Shown: positions 3,698 through 37,403 of the stretch, one piece after another
How positions within the stretch are numbered: the stretch's first letter is position 1
Layout of the letters: each line of letters begins with the position of its first letter
From: Cytophagaceae bacterium
GTDB taxonomy: Bacteria; Bacteroidota; Bacteroidia; Cytophagales; Spirosomataceae
DNA: 37,403 nucleotides
NCBI GenBank assembly: GCA_026785975.1
Contig: JAJAZB010000328.1
Span: 1 to 37,403, forward strand
Direction of reading: 5' to 3'
The notes under the pieces: model-generated
What the model was told of the DNA's origin: nothing
What the model saw: only the letters and a program-made list of their open reading frames with translations
Database searches by the model: none
Program-made: the position numbers and the translations under genes

Positions 3698-4566
3698 CCT
3701 CCGCCCATTCCCTTTTTCGCTTCCTGGCCGACGAACTGATGGCAGCTTACGAGCGTACTGAGGCACAAGCCATTGCGTACCGGCTACTTGACTTTCACCT
3801 TCACCTTTCCCGCACGGACATTCTTCTCGACAAACGGCTTCCGGCGGTTCAACCCGATTGGCAACTGCTGTTGAAGCGGCTGCAAGCCCAGGAACCGGTG
3901 CAGTACGTTCTGGGCGAAACGGAGTTTCACGGACGCCCTTTCCGGGTAACGCCCGCTACGCTCATCCCCCGGCCCGAGACGGAAGAGTTGGTGAATCTGG
4001 TGATCCAGGAGGTCAAAAAAAATTCAACTTTCAATTCTCAACCGCGCGGCGGACCGTTTTCAATTCTGGACCTCGGTACTGGCAGCGGGTGCATTGCCGT
4101 TACGCTGGCGCTGGAACTGCCCCAGGCCGACGTTTTCGCCTGGGATATTTCGCCCGACGCTCTCGCCGTGGCCCGTCAGAATGCCGAACGCCTCGGAGCG
4201 CGTGTACAGTTTGAACAACAAGATATTCTAAAACTAACCCCCGAATCCGGCGATTCGCCTTACACGGTTATCGTCAGCAATCCGCCTTACGTGACGCGCT
4301 CAGAAACGGCACGAATGCAGCCCAACGTTCTCGACTACGAGCCGCATCTGGCGTTGTTTGTACCCAATGATGACCCGCTGTTATTTTACCGGGCCATCGC
4401 TACGCTGGGCCGTCGATGTTTGGCGATTGGTGGGTTGGTTTTCGTAGAAATCAACCGGGTGCTGGGCGCCGAAACGGCGTCGGTCTTTCTGGAACAGGGC
4501 TTTTCGTCAGCCGAGGTCGTTAAGGATTTGTCGGGAAATAATCGGTTTGTACGCGCACTTCGCTAA
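3694..4566 (+). CDS. prmC: Release factor glutamine N5-methyltransferase
   Basis: PrmC (HemK) methylates the glutamine of the GGQ motif in peptide release factors using S-adenosylmethionine. The 290-residue length is normal. Residues 1-75 form the helical release-factor-binding domain, IPRPETEELV at 91-100 is the family linker motif, DLGTGSGC at 126-133 is the SAM-binding loop, and NPPY at 196-199 is the catalytic motif. The start is a GTG that overlaps the previous stop codon. Residues about 108-121 are encoded by a copy of an intergenic repeat, an unusual in-frame insertion between two conserved motifs that should be harmless there. Confidence 0.93.
   Translation: MTSAHSLFRFLADELMAAYERTEAQAIAYRLLDFHLHLSRTDILLDKRLPAVQPDWQLLLKRLQAQEPVQYVLGETEFHGRPFRVTPATLIPRPETEELVNLVIQEVKKNSTFNSQPRGGPFSILDLGTGSGCIAVTLALELPQADVFAWDISPDALAVARQNAERLGARVQFEQQDILKLTPESGDSPYTVIVSNPPYVTRSETARMQPNVLDYEPHLALFVPNDDPLLFYRAIATLGRRCLAIGGLVFVEINRVLGAETASVFLEQGFSSAEVVKDLSGNNRFVRALR
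4023..4066 (+). repeat. Intergenic repeat fragment inside prmC
   Basis: The 20 bases at 4023-4042 are, as reverse complement, identical at 19 of 20 positions to 37075-37094, the repeat next to the HlyD gene. A further TTTTCAATTC follows at 4057-4066. Here the repeat is translated as the low-complexity linker NSTFNSQ of PrmC. Confidence 0.6.
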
Positions 4567-6974: not shown

Positions 6975-7083
6975 TTTGTCATCCTGAGGCACGAAGGATC
7001 TGGTTAGTGTGACTTATAAAGCCTGACGATAGCCAGCATTTCAAATATCCCCAACCAGATCCTTCCTGCGTCAGGATGACAAA
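6975..7083. repeat. REP-like inverted repeat, GTCATCCTGAGG family
   Basis: The 31-base arms at 6975-7005 and 7053-7083 are inverted copies with two mismatches, spaced by 47 bases. The left arm contains GTCATCCTGAGGCACGAAGG, which recurs at 18290-18309. It lies between the aldehyde dehydrogenase and epimerase genes, both on the minus strand, so it would form a long hairpin in any joint transcript. Confidence 0.85.
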
Positions 7084-9655: not shown

Positions 9656-9669
9656 AAAAGATAAGAGAA

Positions 9670-9770
9670 AGGCCCCCAACCGACCCGTCGGACCGCCCCG
9701 AAGGGGGCTTTTTATAGGTTAACAAAAGAAAACCCCCTTCGGGGCGGTCCGACGGGTCGGTTGGGGGCCT
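9670..9770. terminator. Long hairpin between kup and FAH genes
   Basis: A 38-bp perfect inverted repeat, 9670-9707 against 9733-9770, encloses a 25-base loop. The far end shares its last base with the kup stop codon (TAA, 9770-9772). It is far longer than a normal terminator and is probably a dispersed palindrome that also ends kup transcripts. An inner CCCCGAAGGGG can fold alone. Confidence 0.8.
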
Positions 9771-11719
9771 TAGGCTTTCACCCGCTTCAGTCGCACGTTT
9801 TCGGCGGGGCGAATGATGAGGGGTACTTTTTCAACTTTTACCGAACTACTGTCCAACCCAAACCATTTGTCCTCGGAATTGGTAAACGATTTGATGAAAA
9901 AGTAAGCCTCCATCGTCACTCGTTCGAAGAAGGGTAATTCATTTTCGTAAGAAAGAAATTTTTCGAGGACGACAAACCGGAAGTCACCGATGACGTTCTG
10001 TTTGCTCAACGATTCGTACCGGCTGGTGATGTCTACTTCTTTGTTCATGACCAGGTCTTCGATGACCTTTCTGAAGTAAAGATTGATCCGTTGCTCAACC
10101 CGAAACCCTAATTTGAACGTCACCTTGATGATGTCATCGGCTTCGATGATATTCACTTTGTACTCCATCGTGTACGGATCGTCGAGTGTATCGACGTGAA
10201 CAAACCAGTAGATATCGGCGCGTTTGGGGCGTTTCTGGAAAATGGAATAAATGATTTTCGACTCAATTTCATTGGCCCTGGAGGCATTACTCATGAAGAC
10301 CAGATGGGTGGCGTATTTGGGAATACTTTTGTCATGGCTGAGATCGCGGAGCGGCTCGATGTATTGATCGAGTTTAACATACTCCGTCAAGCGGGCTTTG
10401 ATCTTGAAGGCTCGGAGCCAGATAATCATGACCCCCGCCATCAACGAGGCAATCAACATCGAAACCCAACCGCCAGCGGTGAATTTGAGCAGGTTCGCCG
10501 TTAAAAAGGAGCCTTCGATGATCAGATAGCCAACCAGAAACAGGAGAACGAAGTAGAAATTGTAGCGGTGGGAGTACAGGTAATAAGCCATCATCAGGGT
10601 ATTCATCAACATGGTCAGGGTAATGGCCAAACCATACGCTGCCTCCATCCGCGATGATTCCTTAAAATAAAACACCACCCCGATACAACCCAGCCAAAGC
10701 AACCAGTTGATACTCGGCACGTACAATTGCCCCTTTTGATCAGAGGGAAAAACCAGGCGTACCTTCGGCCAGAAGTTGAGGCGAATTGCTTCGGAAATCA
10801 GAGTAAATGAGCCTGAAATCATGGCCTGACTGGCGATGATGGCCGCCAAGGTTGCAATAATAACGCCCGGTAGCAAAAACCAGTCGGGCATCAACTCATA
10901 GATGGGCTTGCGGCCCTGGAGAAGTTGTCCCTGCTGTTCGAGTAACCAGACGCCCTGGCCGAAATACTGCAACAGCAGGCAGGTTTTTACGAAAACCCAA
11001 CTGACGCGAATGTTGGCCCGCCCGGTGTGACCCATATCCGAGTAGAGTGCTTCGGCACCCGTCGTACAGAGAAAAATAGCCCCCAGTAACCAGAACCCAC
11101 CCGGATATTCAACCAAAAGCTGGTAGGCGTAGAGCGGATTAACGGCCCGTAGGATGGTCCAGTCGCGGGCTACCCAAATAACGCCCAGTGTACCCAACAT
11201 GGAGAACCATACCATCATGATGGGGCCAAAGGAGCGACCCACCACTTTCGTTCCCAAGGCCTGCACCAAAAAGATGAGCGTGAGAATGGCCAGGACAATC
11301 GGCAGAATAAACCGCTCTAATTCGGGATAACGCAGTTCGAGTCCCTCAACGGCAGAAGCCACCGAAATGGGTGGGGTAATGATGCCATCGGCCAGTACGG
11401 TGGCGCCCCCGATAATGGCCGGAATAGTCAGCCACTTAGCATGGCGGCGCACCAGGGTGTAGAGGGAAAAAATTCCGCCTTCACCCCGGTTGTCGGCCCG
11501 AAGCACCAGAATGACGTATTTTACTGTCGTTTGAAGTGTCAGTGTCCAGAAAATGCAGGATAAACTCCCCACGACCAATTCAGGACTAATCACCGATTGA
11601 CCAATAATCGCCGACATCACATAAAGCGGCGAGGTTCCGATGTCGCCGTAAATGATCCCCAGCGCCACCAGCGACCCCGCCGCCGTGACTTTATCAGAAT
11701 GTTTTTTTCGGTCTTCCAT
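9770..11719 (-). CDS. kup: KUP-family potassium uptake protein
   Basis: Kup is a low-affinity K+/H+ symporter of the inner membrane. The protein is 649 residues from the ATG at 11719. GIIYGDIGTSPLYV near the N terminus is the family signature, followed by about 12 hydrophobic segments up to residue 440 and a cytoplasmic C-terminal domain of about 200 residues. A GTG at 11734 would add five residues (VIHPG) and is less likely. A consensus Bacteroidota promoter sits about 50 bases upstream. The gene is probably transcribed alone, since the long hairpin follows its stop. Confidence 0.93.
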   Translation of the reverse strand: MEDRKKHSDKVTAAGSLVALGIIYGDIGTSPLYVMSAIIGQSVISPELVVGSLSCIFWTLTLQTTVKYVILVLRADNRGEGGIFSLYTLVRRHAKWLTIPAIIGGATVLADGIITPPISVASAVEGLELRYPELERFILPIVLAILTLIFLVQALGTKVVGRSFGPIMMVWFSMLGTLGVIWVARDWTILRAVNPLYAYQLLVEYPGGFWLLGAIFLCTTGAEALYSDMGHTGRANIRVSWVFVKTCLLLQYFGQGVWLLEQQGQLLQGRKPIYELMPDWFLLPGVIIATLAAIIASQAMISGSFTLISEAIRLNFWPKVRLVFPSDQKGQLYVPSINWLLWLGCIGVVFYFKESSRMEAAYGLAITLTMLMNTLMMAYYLYSHRYNFYFVLLFLVGYLIIEGSFLTANLLKFTAGGWVSMLIASLMAGVMIIWLRAFKIKARLTEYVKLDQYIEPLRDLSHDKSIPKYATHLVFMSNASRANEIESKIIYSIFQKRPKRADIYWFVHVDTLDDPYTMEYKVNIIEADDIIKVTFKLGFRVEQRINLYFRKVIEDLVMNKEVDITSRYESLSKQNVIGDFRFVVLEKFLSYENELPFFERVTMEAYFFIKSFTNSEDKWFGLDSSSVKVEKVPLIIRPAENVRLKRVKA

Positions 11720-15132: not shown

Positions 15133-15150
15133 ATAATGCTGAACTTCAAA

Positions 15151-15233
15151 GAATGCTGAATGCTGAATTATGAATGCTGAATAAAAACGGGCGTGTCTGA
15201 CATTCAGCATTCATAATTCAGCATTCATAATTC
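15151..15233. repeat. Iterated-word palindrome between eno and the FtsB-like gene
   Basis: The 32-base arms at 15151-15182 and 15202-15233 are inverted copies with two mismatches. Each arm is made of repeats of GAATGCT or GAATTAT. The loop is 19 bases. Related words occur at 32418-32486 inside the ribosomal superoperon. The element fills the gap and ends 5 bases before the next ATG, so it could affect that gene's translation or act as a partial terminator for eno. Confidence 0.88.
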
Positions 15234-15237
15234 TCCC

Positions 15238-22496: not shown

Positions 22497-22577
22497 GATT
22501 GGGAATACGAATTAGGAATTAAGAATTAGTTGAGTCAGGCTTTTTAATTCCTAATTCGTAATTCCTAATTCCCAATT
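22497..22577. repeat. Iterated-word palindrome between rpsM and rpsK
   Basis: Repeats of AATTAGGAATTA and AATTCGTAATTCC fill the gap. The left block (22497-22530) and right block (22542-22577) are imperfect inverted copies, with one unit of about nine bases missing on the left. In the mRNA it would form a hairpin just before rpsK. Confidence 0.8.
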
Positions 22578-22578
22578 G

Positions 22579-22956
22579 TTATTTAGTTGCCTTCTTCTTG
22601 TTTGCTACCGTCTTACGCTTGCCTTTGCGGGTACGGGAGTTGTTCTTAGTTTTCTGCCCCCGCACGGGTAGCCCTTTCCGGTGGCGTAAACCCCGGTAGC
22701 TACCAATGTCCATCAGGCGTTTAATATTGAGCTGAACTTCCGAGCGTAACGCGCCTTCAGTTTTAAACTCGTTACCAATCAGAGTACGAATCGCACTGGC
22801 TTCATCGTCGTTCCATTCAATCGCTTTTTTGTCACGATTGATACCCGCCCGGTCCAGAATAGTTTGAGCAGTGCTACGGCCAATACCGTAGATGTAAGTG
22901 AGGGCAATTTCGCCGCGCTTTTTATCGGGAATGTCAACCCCTGCAATTCTCGCCAT
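22579..22956 (-). CDS. rpsM: 30S ribosomal protein S13
   Basis: uS13 lies in the head of the small subunit and bridges to the large subunit and P-site tRNA. It is 125 residues: [19 protein letters not shown], the helix-two-turn-helix region with [12 protein letters not shown], then [18 protein letters not shown] and a very basic tail ending KKKATK. It begins 9 bases after rpmJ, the standard order. Confidence 0.98.
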
Positions 22957-32409: not shown

Positions 32410-32417
32410 ATTTTATT

Positions 32418-32486
32418 AAATGCTGAATTATGAATGATGAATTCTGAATGAGAAAGCTAAAATTCAGCATTCAGCATTCAACATTC
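32418..32486. repeat. Iterated-word palindrome between rpsS and rplV
   Basis: The left block (32418-32449) repeats AATGCTGAATTATGAAT-like words and the right block (32462-32486) is made of ATTCAGCATTC units in inverted orientation. The same words build the element at 15151-15233, so a single dispersed family is present in the window. Confidence 0.82.
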
Positions 32487-32764
32487 TATCGTTTGCCTTT
32501 ATCTTTTTTCGCTACGTGGCCACGGAAATTACGTGTGGGCGCAAATTCACCCAGCTTGTGCCCGACCATATTTTCGGTGACGTAAACCGGAATAAACTTG
32601 TTGCCGTTGTGAACGGCGAACGTGTGACCGACGAAATCGGGTGAAATCATCGAGCGACGCGACCAGGTTTTAATGACCGACTTCTTACCCGCCGTGTTCA
32701 TCGTCTGAACTTTGTTGTCGAGGCGAAAGTCAATGTAAGGGCCTTTTTTGAGCGAACGTGCCAT
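32486..32764 (-). CDS. rpsS: 30S ribosomal protein S19
   Basis: uS19 sits in the head of the small subunit next to S13. The 92 residues start [20 protein letters not shown] and include [40 protein letters not shown] and [17 protein letters not shown]. Its ATG overlaps the rplB stop by one base (TAATG on the minus strand), so the two are translationally coupled. Confidence 0.98.
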
Positions 32765-35792: not shown

Positions 35793-37067
35793 CTACTGCC
35801 CGGCAGCACTGACCCGACGCAGGTTGTAGAACAGTTTTTCAAGCAGTCGTGAGTCATCGGTCAGGATTTCTGCCGAAGCACTCATTCCCGTTTTGTAGGA
35901 TAGCGATTTGCCGTAATTCGTCGTCAGGCCCGCAGGCAGGGCCACTTTAGCCAGGAACACGCTGTCGCGCACAGATACCTCGGCAATGGATTCGATGCGT
36001 CCGCGCACGGCACCGAATTCCTGAAACGGATACCCCGCAAATTTGACCAACACCGTTTGCCCGGCTTTTACTTTGCCAAAATTCTGCTGCGGTACGCGCA
36101 ATTCCCCGAAGTACCCGGTGTGGACGGGGACAATGTAAAATAATTCCTGCCCCATCGCCAAGTGCTGGCTCTCCTGCACGAACGACGGAAACACCACCTG
36201 CCCGGCCACGGGTGCCGTCAACACGTACTTCGCCTTCCAGGCTTCCGCCGCGCTGCGCAGGGTATTGAGCGTTTGCAGAAACTGGTCGCGCTCTTCGGCC
36301 ACCTGCTGGTCGAGTTCCAGGATTTCCTTTTGTTTGGCCCGTTGCGCCACGCCGTTGTTAATGAGCGCCGCGCCAGTTTGTTGCAGCGGAAACGAGCGGG
36401 CGAGGCGTTTGCTTTCTTCGCGTTTCAGTTCCAACGGAGCAATCACCTTTTGCTCGGCCAGGCTCAGTTGCACCTCGTAGTCGTCCTGGGCCAGTTGCTG
36501 ATCGCGTTGCTGGAGGGTGCGCTGTTCGCGGAGGTTGTCAGCTAAGGCCGCCAAATCCCGAATTTCCTCGTGCAGCAGTGCTTTTTTCTGGCTGTAAAAT
36601 CCGCCCGCCAGGTAAGCCTTGAGCTGAATGTGCGCCTGCTCGAAGGTTTGAAAACTGGCTTGTAATTCACCGAGTTGGTGGAAGTTGCGCAAGTTGGGCA
36701 TGGATAAACGTTCGAGTTGGTCCCGGCGGGCAAGGTTCCAGGCGCGTTCCAATTCAGCCATCAGCCGCAGCACGTCTTCGTGGCGGGCGGTGCTTTCGAG
36801 GTAGGCTAGCGATTGCCCAACGTTTACCCGACTCCGTTCGGCGACCAGCAGACGCACTAGTTTGCCCTCGGTGCGGGTCAGTACGGCTTTGGGGGCGTTG
36901 AGCGAAGTGAGTTTGAACGACGCCCGCACCACGTCGGGGTAGCGGATTACCCACGCGCCCGTCAGCACCCCGGCCAGCACCAGCGCCACGAGCGTAATGC
37001 CCCAACGCAACAGCCAGCGCGGAGGGCGGGCAATGAGTTCCTGGACTTCTTCGGAGCGGAGTTCCAT
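35793..37067 (-). CDS. HlyD-family periplasmic export adaptor
   Basis: The protein is 424 residues from the ATG at 37067 (a GTG one codon earlier is possible). One membrane helix lies at about residues 20-42 (LLRWGITLVALVLAGVLTGA). A short lipoyl-like segment (GKLVRLLVAERSRVNVGQSL) follows, then a long coiled-coil hairpin (about 85-280), the second lipoyl half (VAGQVVFPSFVQESQHLAMG), and a beta-barrel region (GQTVLVKFAGYPFQEFGAVR). Such adaptors link a type I, often peptidase-containing, ABC transporter to an outer-membrane channel; no transporter gene is next to it in the window. It stands alone, followed by a hairpin. Confidence 0.88.
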   Translation of the reverse strand: MELRSEEVQELIARPPRWLLRWGITLVALVLAGVLTGAWVIRYPDVVRASFKLTSLNAPKAVLTRTEGKLVRLLVAERSRVNVGQSLAYLESTARHEDVLRLMAELERAWNLARRDQLERLSMPNLRNFHQLGELQASFQTFEQAHIQLKAYLAGGFYSQKKALLHEEIRDLAALADNLREQRTLQQRDQQLAQDDYEVQLSLAEQKVIAPLELKREESKRLARSFPLQQTGAALINNGVAQRAKQKEILELDQQVAEERDQFLQTLNTLRSAAEAWKAKYVLTAPVAGQVVFPSFVQESQHLAMGQELFYIVPVHTGYFGELRVPQQNFGKVKAGQTVLVKFAGYPFQEFGAVRGRIESIAEVSVRDSVFLAKVALPAGLTTNYGKSLSYKTGMSASAEILTDDSRLLEKLFYNLRRVSAAGQ

Positions 37068-37074
37068 CACGGGA

Positions 37075-37110
37075 GTTGAAAATTGAAAGTTGAAAATTGA
37101 GAGTTGAAAA
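37075..37110. repeat. Iterated GTTGAAAATTG repeat block
   Basis: Units of GTTGAAAATTGAAAGTTGAA are repeated in the 29-base space between the HlyD start and the four-helix-bundle gene and run into the latter. A 20-base portion (37075-37094) matches the prmC internal copy at 4023-4042 in the other orientation at 19 of 20 positions. Confidence 0.8.
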
Positions 37111-37403
37111 CATACTGATTACGAAAAGCTATGCCTTTGCCTTGAGGATGGTAAAACTTCAGCAGTTTCTGGTGGAACACAAAAAAGAATACGTGCTTTC
37201 CAAGCAGGCGGTGCGGAGTGGTACGTCAATCGGTGCCAATCTGGAAGAGGCGAATCAGGCGGAAAGCCTGGCAGATTTTATTCACAAACTCTCAATTAGC
37301 AACAAGGAAGCTCACGAAACGCATTACTGGTTGCGCCTACTTCGCGACGCGGAATGGCCTGACAACCGCCTGGCCGATTCGTTGCTAACCGACTGCGGTG
37401 AAC
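37097..37403 (+). CDS. Four-helix-bundle (S23-type) protein, cut by window end
   Basis: Reading from a TTG at 37097 gives MRVENILITKSYAFALRMVK, then FLVEHKKEYVLSKQAVRSGT, SIGANLEEANQAESLADFIH and KLSISNKEAHETHYWLRLLR, the full signature of the family once found in 23S rRNA intervening sequences (TIGR02436). The start codon and first residues lie inside the repeat block; no ATG is available in frame before the conserved core, and the frame upstream is closed by a TGA. The function is unknown. About 102 residues are visible; the family is usually 115-125, so some 15-20 are missing at the window end. It diverges from the HlyD gene with only 29 bases between. Confidence 0.85.
   Translation, partial: MRVENILITKSYAFALRMVKLQQFLVEHKKEYVLSKQAVRSGTSIGANLEEANQAESLADFIHKLSISNKEAHETHYWLRLLRDAEWPDNRLADSLLTDCGE

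Follow-up and report, generated by a model that had tools for sequence, protein, structure and literature searches.

Inverted heptamer and octamer arrays bracketing S23-family genes point to a class of small mobile elements in bacteria

The stretch of DNA analysed here (the window: all 37,403 nucleotides of contig JAJAZB010000328.1, assembly GCA_026785975.1, from a Cytophagaceae bacterium of the Spirosomataceae) ends within a gene for a four-helix-bundle protein of the S23 family, the start of which lies in an array of short repeats. Comparison with S23 genes of other bacteria indicates that this focal gene is probably one copy of a class of small mobile elements, about 500-700 bp long, in which an S23 gene is bracketed by two mutually inverted heptamer or octamer arrays that the S23 protein mobilises or maintains. 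The status of the unit as an element and the co-movement of gene and arms are well supported; an action of S23 on the arrays, including mobilisation in trans and any catalytic role, is what we infer from these patterns.

Membership of the focal protein in the S23 family is evident from both its sequence scores, which lie above the curated cut-offs, and its four-helix-bundle fold. Profile searches with the 102 residues readable before the contig end return TIGR02436 (E 3.8e-24, 85 bits against a cut-off of 24) and PF05635 (E 1e-21, 77.6 bits against a cut-off of 33.8) as the only matches, with none to the Y1 (HUH) transposases. The structure model (pLDDT 93.5) has four helices, and its best structural match is 2RLD at a TM score of about 0.9, with 2GSC at about 0.7. 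A preliminary description, made from the window alone, had the gene begin with a TTG inside the repeat, and this is borne out: the codon, at 37097, falls within the final repeat copies of the array (GTTGAAAATTGAGAGTTGAAAAC). A start at this point is plausible, because L007, its nearest relative among the S23 genes of the genome, has a GTG start at the aligned codon (MKTENTLLVKSYAFA against MRVENILITKSYAFA, by reading of the alignment). The 3' arm of the focal element falls beyond the contig end and so out of view.

The array-S23-array architecture is general across bacterial phyla. Of 196 distinct S23 genes collected, 191 have usable flanks, and an inverted-repeat score computed between the upstream and downstream 250 bp has a median of 33 at these genes, compared with 17 for randomly paired flanks. 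With a score of 30 or more taken as bracketing, 116 of the 191 genes (61%) lie between inverted arrays, compared with 2 of 141 control open reading frames (ORFs) of the same loci and 1.6 expected from mispairing, which confirms the enrichment of repeats beside S23 genes that the preliminary description implied. The best period of the arms is 7 in 77 of the bracketed genes, 8 in 34 and another value in the remaining 5. Chance or low complexity as the source of the arms is ruled out by the mispaired, control-ORF and other-period controls. The signal is as strong outside Bacteroidota (37 loci, median 33) as inside (38 loci, median 29), and the pattern is seen in cyanobacteria, Planctomycetes, Clostridia, Acidobacteria and others. 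S23 genes of cyanobacterial plasmids are also flanked by heptamer arms; at two such loci (L340 and L343), the gene and its arms are inserted between cas6 and cas4 of CRISPR (clustered regularly interspaced short palindromic repeats) loci. Among 50,697 phage records, there are no S23 matches.

The repeat word and the protein co-segregate at unrelated sites. For S23 pairs at different sites, arm words are shared in 1-2% of pairs below 50% protein identity, in 24% of pairs at 60-70% identity and in 73% above 70% (different genomes). The S23 proteins of KSB1, Nitrospirae and Desulfobacteraceae, which are 66-69% identical, have the same octamers at unrelated sites. Likewise, period 7 and period 8 are clustered on the (weakly resolved) S23 tree, with 15 changes compared with 27 upon shuffling and none of 500 shuffles as low. 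Unrelated S23 elements of one genome, with proteins below 50% identity, share words in 2% of pairs, so the repeat word as a genome-wide trait is rejected. The proteins themselves are under strong purifying selection (median omega 0.07).

Related genomes either have the whole unit or lack all of it, and the clean empty sites expected of a mobile element are found in relatives. In G060, a WbjC-like gene is separated from a WecB-like one (names by reading of the translations) by 605 bp of array, S23 gene and array, and the corresponding site within the same genus, without the unit, measures 17 bp in G064 and 8 bp in G066. This insertion is clean and stands in a genome where the reverse-transcriptase family RVT_1 was not found. 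A fatty-acid-oxidation operon of Flavobacteriales differs at two sites 2.4 kb apart. Ahead of the fadB-like gene, an element is present in L113 and nothing similar in L093 or L118; at the other site, L093 and L118 carry an S23 gene, and L113 has arrays of the same word without one. Two Aquimarina loci, L079 and L075, provide a further occupied/empty case.

Gene-less array hairpins with the words of S23 elements exist as well. Stretches of 400 kb contain 28 gene-less period-7/8 arrays in G051, which has 12 S23 genes, and 2 in G019, which has 5; three S23-free genomes have no period-7/8 arrays in the 800 kb scanned. Across 61 genomes, S23 number is correlated with matches to a single degenerate word pattern and to its reversal (rho 0.45, per Mb 0.50, p <3e-4). 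As a separate observation, G030 exceeds all other genomes by a wide margin in matches to the heptamer word pattern (>1,100 in 2.7 Mb), and long pure arrays adjoin its S23 genes (L189).

The source genome of the window, G000, is a draft of 4.93 Mb in 523 contigs, 88% complete, and the sole genome of its genus. It has 13 S23 matches, L012 and L013 being two halves of one broken gene. Most complete S23 genes among them have short, mutually inverted flanking arrays with a word that differs from gene to gene: AACAATG at L005, GTGATCA at L003, GAATGCT at L004, GAATTAG at L012, TTGAGAA at L007, a TAATTTC-type word at L009 and TTCGATG with a CGGTCCGCCGCGCGG core at L001; clear arms were not found at L002. 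The edge of the gene, which the preliminary description took for one dispersed repeat, is instead one of two inverted arms, each a heptamer or octamer array whose word changes from element to element. In the whole genome, GTTGAAAATTG has 73 exact copies, compared with 6 for the reversed control, and many of them occur as +/- pairs forming hairpins. The focal word is common to L007, a near-identical paralogue, and to several dozen sites that have no S23 gene, of which many form hairpins; within the window, the focal 11-mer with one mismatch is found 4 times against 1.8 expected, which is not significant. Four gene-less arrays lie in the window, and between them they use the words of three S23 elements of G000 (Table 1). 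Repeat-only copies had indeed been described there, but three of the four arrays use words of other S23 elements. The accompanying picture of an autonomous element with non-autonomous relatives gains from the coupling of word to protein clade and from an array density that tracks S23 number; its remaining component, movement of gene-less copies in trans by S23, we infer.

Table 1. Features of the focal locus and gene-less arrays in the window.
Feature	Position	Strand	Evidence or context
5' arm of focal element, a degenerate array of the heptamer (A/G)TTGA(A/G)A	37071-37111	+	Period-7 array scan
S23 (four-helix-bundle) gene, cut off by contig end	37097-37402	+	TIGR02436, PF05635
HlyD-type secretion adaptor gene, neighbour outside the element, divergent to S23	35793-37070	-	TIGR01843 (E 2.4e-33, under curated cut-off), PF13437
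Array of focal word (ATTCAACTTTCAATTCTCAACCGCGCGGCGGACCGTTTTCAATTC)	4022-4067	none	Inside prmC/hemK coding sequence, in frame
Gene-less hairpin, word GAATGCT	15150-15234	none	Word of L004
Gene-less hairpin, word GAATTAG/GAATTAC	22498-22584	none	Word of L012; rpsM-rpsK spacer
Gene-less hairpin, word GAATGCT	32417-32488		Spacer between ribosomal-protein genes, ending 32409 and starting 32486

A scan of the window at periods 5 to 11 finds arrays only at period 7. The prmC/hemK protein is about 8-10 residues longer at its in-frame array than solved relatives. A second motif, CGGTCCGCCGCGCGG, recurs within arrays of several words (window positions 4040-4056, both arms of L001, and L015, L017, L031, L033 and L043) and is possibly a nested small repeat. 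In the order-level relative G071, >30 matches to a TAATTCC-type word are found, many at 21-bp steps; these arrays have possibly been homogenised as triple heptamers. Other repeats of the window include a perfect palindrome at the contig start (1-142; two 71-bp arms, no loop), probably a fold-back assembly artefact; an inverted repeat, TTTGTCATCCTGAGGCACGAAGGATCTGGTT, with a 47-bp loop (6975-7083), another dispersed-looking type; and a GC-rich hairpin with 43-bp arms between two minus-strand genes (9669-9771), terminator-like yet unusually long.

A mechanism can be proposed in which the S23 protein, which forms a pentamer in a relative of solved structure, would recognise its cognate arrays and mobilise or maintain both the element that encodes it and gene-less derivatives, much as REP-associated tyrosine transposases (RAYTs) do with repetitive extragenic palindromic (REP) sequences. 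Because S23 is without a recognisable nuclease, the strand chemistry would probably be borrowed from the host, with breakage and joining by replication or repair enzymes at the hairpin-forming arrays. Complementarity of the arms would in addition be preserved by template switching, and slippage would alter them in 7-bp steps. Variants matched between both arms of one hairpin (L040, L042) fit template switching in a quasi-palindrome, and at L026 the palindrome extends into the flank, as arm copying would give. Insertions lie mainly between co-transcribed genes, in sense orientation: S23 is sense to both neighbours at 71 site clusters and antisense at 8 (p 1e-13), suggesting that it is probably expressed by read-through.

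The same sense bias would be expected of an RNA element akin to the intervening sequences (IVSs) of rRNA, the best-placed alternative, although we consider it unlikely. Here, the arms would pair in the operon mRNA and be cut by RNase III, S23 would bind RNA in the manner of Avd, and the unit would spread via a reverse-transcribed RNA copy. Protein family and stem-loop layout are as in rRNA IVSs (PMC4990558), and the weak fold similarity of S23 to Avd of diversity-generating retroelements points the same way. Arm mismatches, counted one per site, show no excess of G-U over A-C (120 against 134), and this leaves a selected sense-RNA stem unsupported. A host reverse transcriptase as obligatory partner is similarly unsupported: RVT_1 was not found in 31 of the 61 genomes, including G000, G017 and G060, which, at 10-13 S23 genes each, are among the genomes richest in them. 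The lack of a G-U excess, the absence of RVT_1 matches from about half of the genomes and the matched arm variants together favour a DNA-level element.

A regulatory role is a more doubtful alternative still. Arrays would then be operators or attenuators bound by S23, which would regulate the host operon or itself, the pair being co-inherited and not mobile. Insertion inside operons, strong purifying selection on S23 and long conservation at leuC-leuD and in a thiolase upstream region are all compatible with such a role, whereas congeneric genomes differ in occupied and empty sites in unrelated operons, tens of gene-less copies stand at unrelated genes, and the same word-protein pair recurs at unrelated sites in different phyla. 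It is very improbable that the arrays arise in place by slippage and template switching, with S23 merely sitting there and spreading by ordinary horizontal transfer: the matched variants at L040 and L042, the palindrome at L026, the comparably long plain hairpins that relatives have between rpsM and rpsK and a word at L079 site 4 that differs from that of the L075 S23 copy would suit this account, but words track the protein clade even where sites are unrelated or phyla differ (the KSB1, Nitrospirae and Desulfobacteraceae octamers), the 800 kb scanned in S23-free genomes contained no arrays, and empty sites miss the whole unit, arrays included.

Several observations count against S23-driven mobility, the reading preferred here. 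No target-site duplication is evident at the G060 insertion, few clean sites having been examined, and the occupied/empty comparisons record presence or absence, so that the differences may be gains or losses. Old insertions common to several genera are numerous (leuC-leuD, thiolase upstream), so S23 elements move rarely. About 39% of S23 genes are without a clear inverted pair, owing to decay, a wrongly chosen flank or a truly different arrangement. The correlation of arrays with S23 number over 61 genomes ignores kinship; G011, with no S23 match, has one array, and G006, with 8 S23 genes, has no match to the word pattern. Because the rpsM-rpsK spacer of relatives contains a plain hairpin similar in length to the array, the latter may have replaced, or grown within, a pre-existing hairpin, and some gene-less arrays may grow in place. 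Finally, the element has no nuclease motif, as the preliminary description had rightly observed, and no other gene, and contact of S23 with the arrays is putative.

If S23-driven mobility holds, published heptamers of unexplained origin may belong to the same class. The heptamer GGGAATC of Xanthomonas forms 70-75 inverted pairs per genome, for which the original paper names no cause and no S23 (Rehm 2015, PMC4692102), and TAACTGA heptamer repeats were likewise described without mention of S23 (MacGregor 2015, PMC4679880). A link of GGGAATC to S23 was predicted before looking. In a search of 369 gammaproteobacterial genomes, (GGGAATC)4 is present in one, G449, the one S23 gene of which has GGGAATC units upstream and GATTCCC units downstream; the link is thus drawn from one genome and one gene, frameshifted and apparently lying between accB and accC (own reading). 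A gene-less copy in G449 has its inner flank, GTTCAAGC, in common with the S23 copy. In the 191 S23 loci, two consecutive TAACTGA units occur in one flank and two GGGAATC units in none, and searches of the open-access literature turned up no work that connects heptamer arrays with S23 genes. We advance tentatively the broadest proposal: that S23 serves a pan-bacterial class of DNA elements as its dedicated mobility protein, reading clade-specific 7/8-bp words, spreading them with or without its own gene and free of a nuclease, and that it is the common source of orphan heptamers in cyanobacteria, xanthomonads, Beggiatoaceae and Bacteroidota. On this proposal, a widespread protein family of hitherto unassigned role and heptamers that have been orphans for decades would gain a testable home.

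Comparison with known systems places the S23 elements near several of them. Like the cyanobacterial short tandemly repeated repetitive sequences (STRRs), TAACTGA and GGGAATC, S23 arrays have period 7, are intergenic, often form inverted pairs and come in several words per genome; the tandem 7-bp intergenic units that characterise the STRR type are found in them as well. Unlike the arrays that bracket S23 genes, most published orphan arrays are gene-less and without a known cause. Inverted ends are shared with insertion sequences and miniature inverted-repeat transposable elements; at the G060 insertion, one of the few clean sites examined, no target-site duplication is evident. Avd is a four-helix bundle like S23, and PF05635 has been linked to it (PMC10053308); Foldseek gives a TM score of up to about 0.65 to 8UBE, at E above 1. 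Unlike in a diversity-generating retroelement, no reverse transcriptase (PF00078) is matched inside the element or in G000, at 88% completeness. The REP/RAYT system offers a closer parallel, with a gene bordered by inverted repeats, gene-less hairpins genome-wide and a type of repeat that goes with the clade of the protein; a further mark of that system, non-autonomous repeat copies in the genome that carries the gene, is found in G000. RAYT is a Y1 (HUH) transposase, whereas the S23 protein folds as a four-helix bundle with PF05635 as its only match, and the S23 arms are tandem 7-8-bp arrays. Should S23 act on its arrays, it would define a class of mobile elements with a small helical-bundle ring as sole protein, as compact as REP/RAYT and present in many phyla.

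The rRNA IVSs are related through the protein itself. Short ORF-less IVSs exist beside ORF-bearing ones. In Coxiella and Leptospira, 23S rRNA IVSs with an S23 ORF have this ORF bordered by complementary sequences and are considered selfish (PMC4990558). Protein family and complementary borders are thus common to IVSs and the S23-element class, the 3' border of the focal copy lying beyond the contig end. IVSs reside in rRNA helices, whereas the elements described here stand between protein genes, the focal one beside an HlyD gene; among the fetched S23 loci, three 23S probes had no match and a fourth (13 nt, 3 mismatches) scattered matches only. The arms also differ, being heptamer or octamer arrays with clade-specific words and many gene-less copies per genome. 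The S23-element class, if S23 acts on its arrays, would suggest that 23S rRNA IVSs are rRNA-resident members of a larger class, and if their arms prove heptameric, IVSs would become its rRNA-resident subset.
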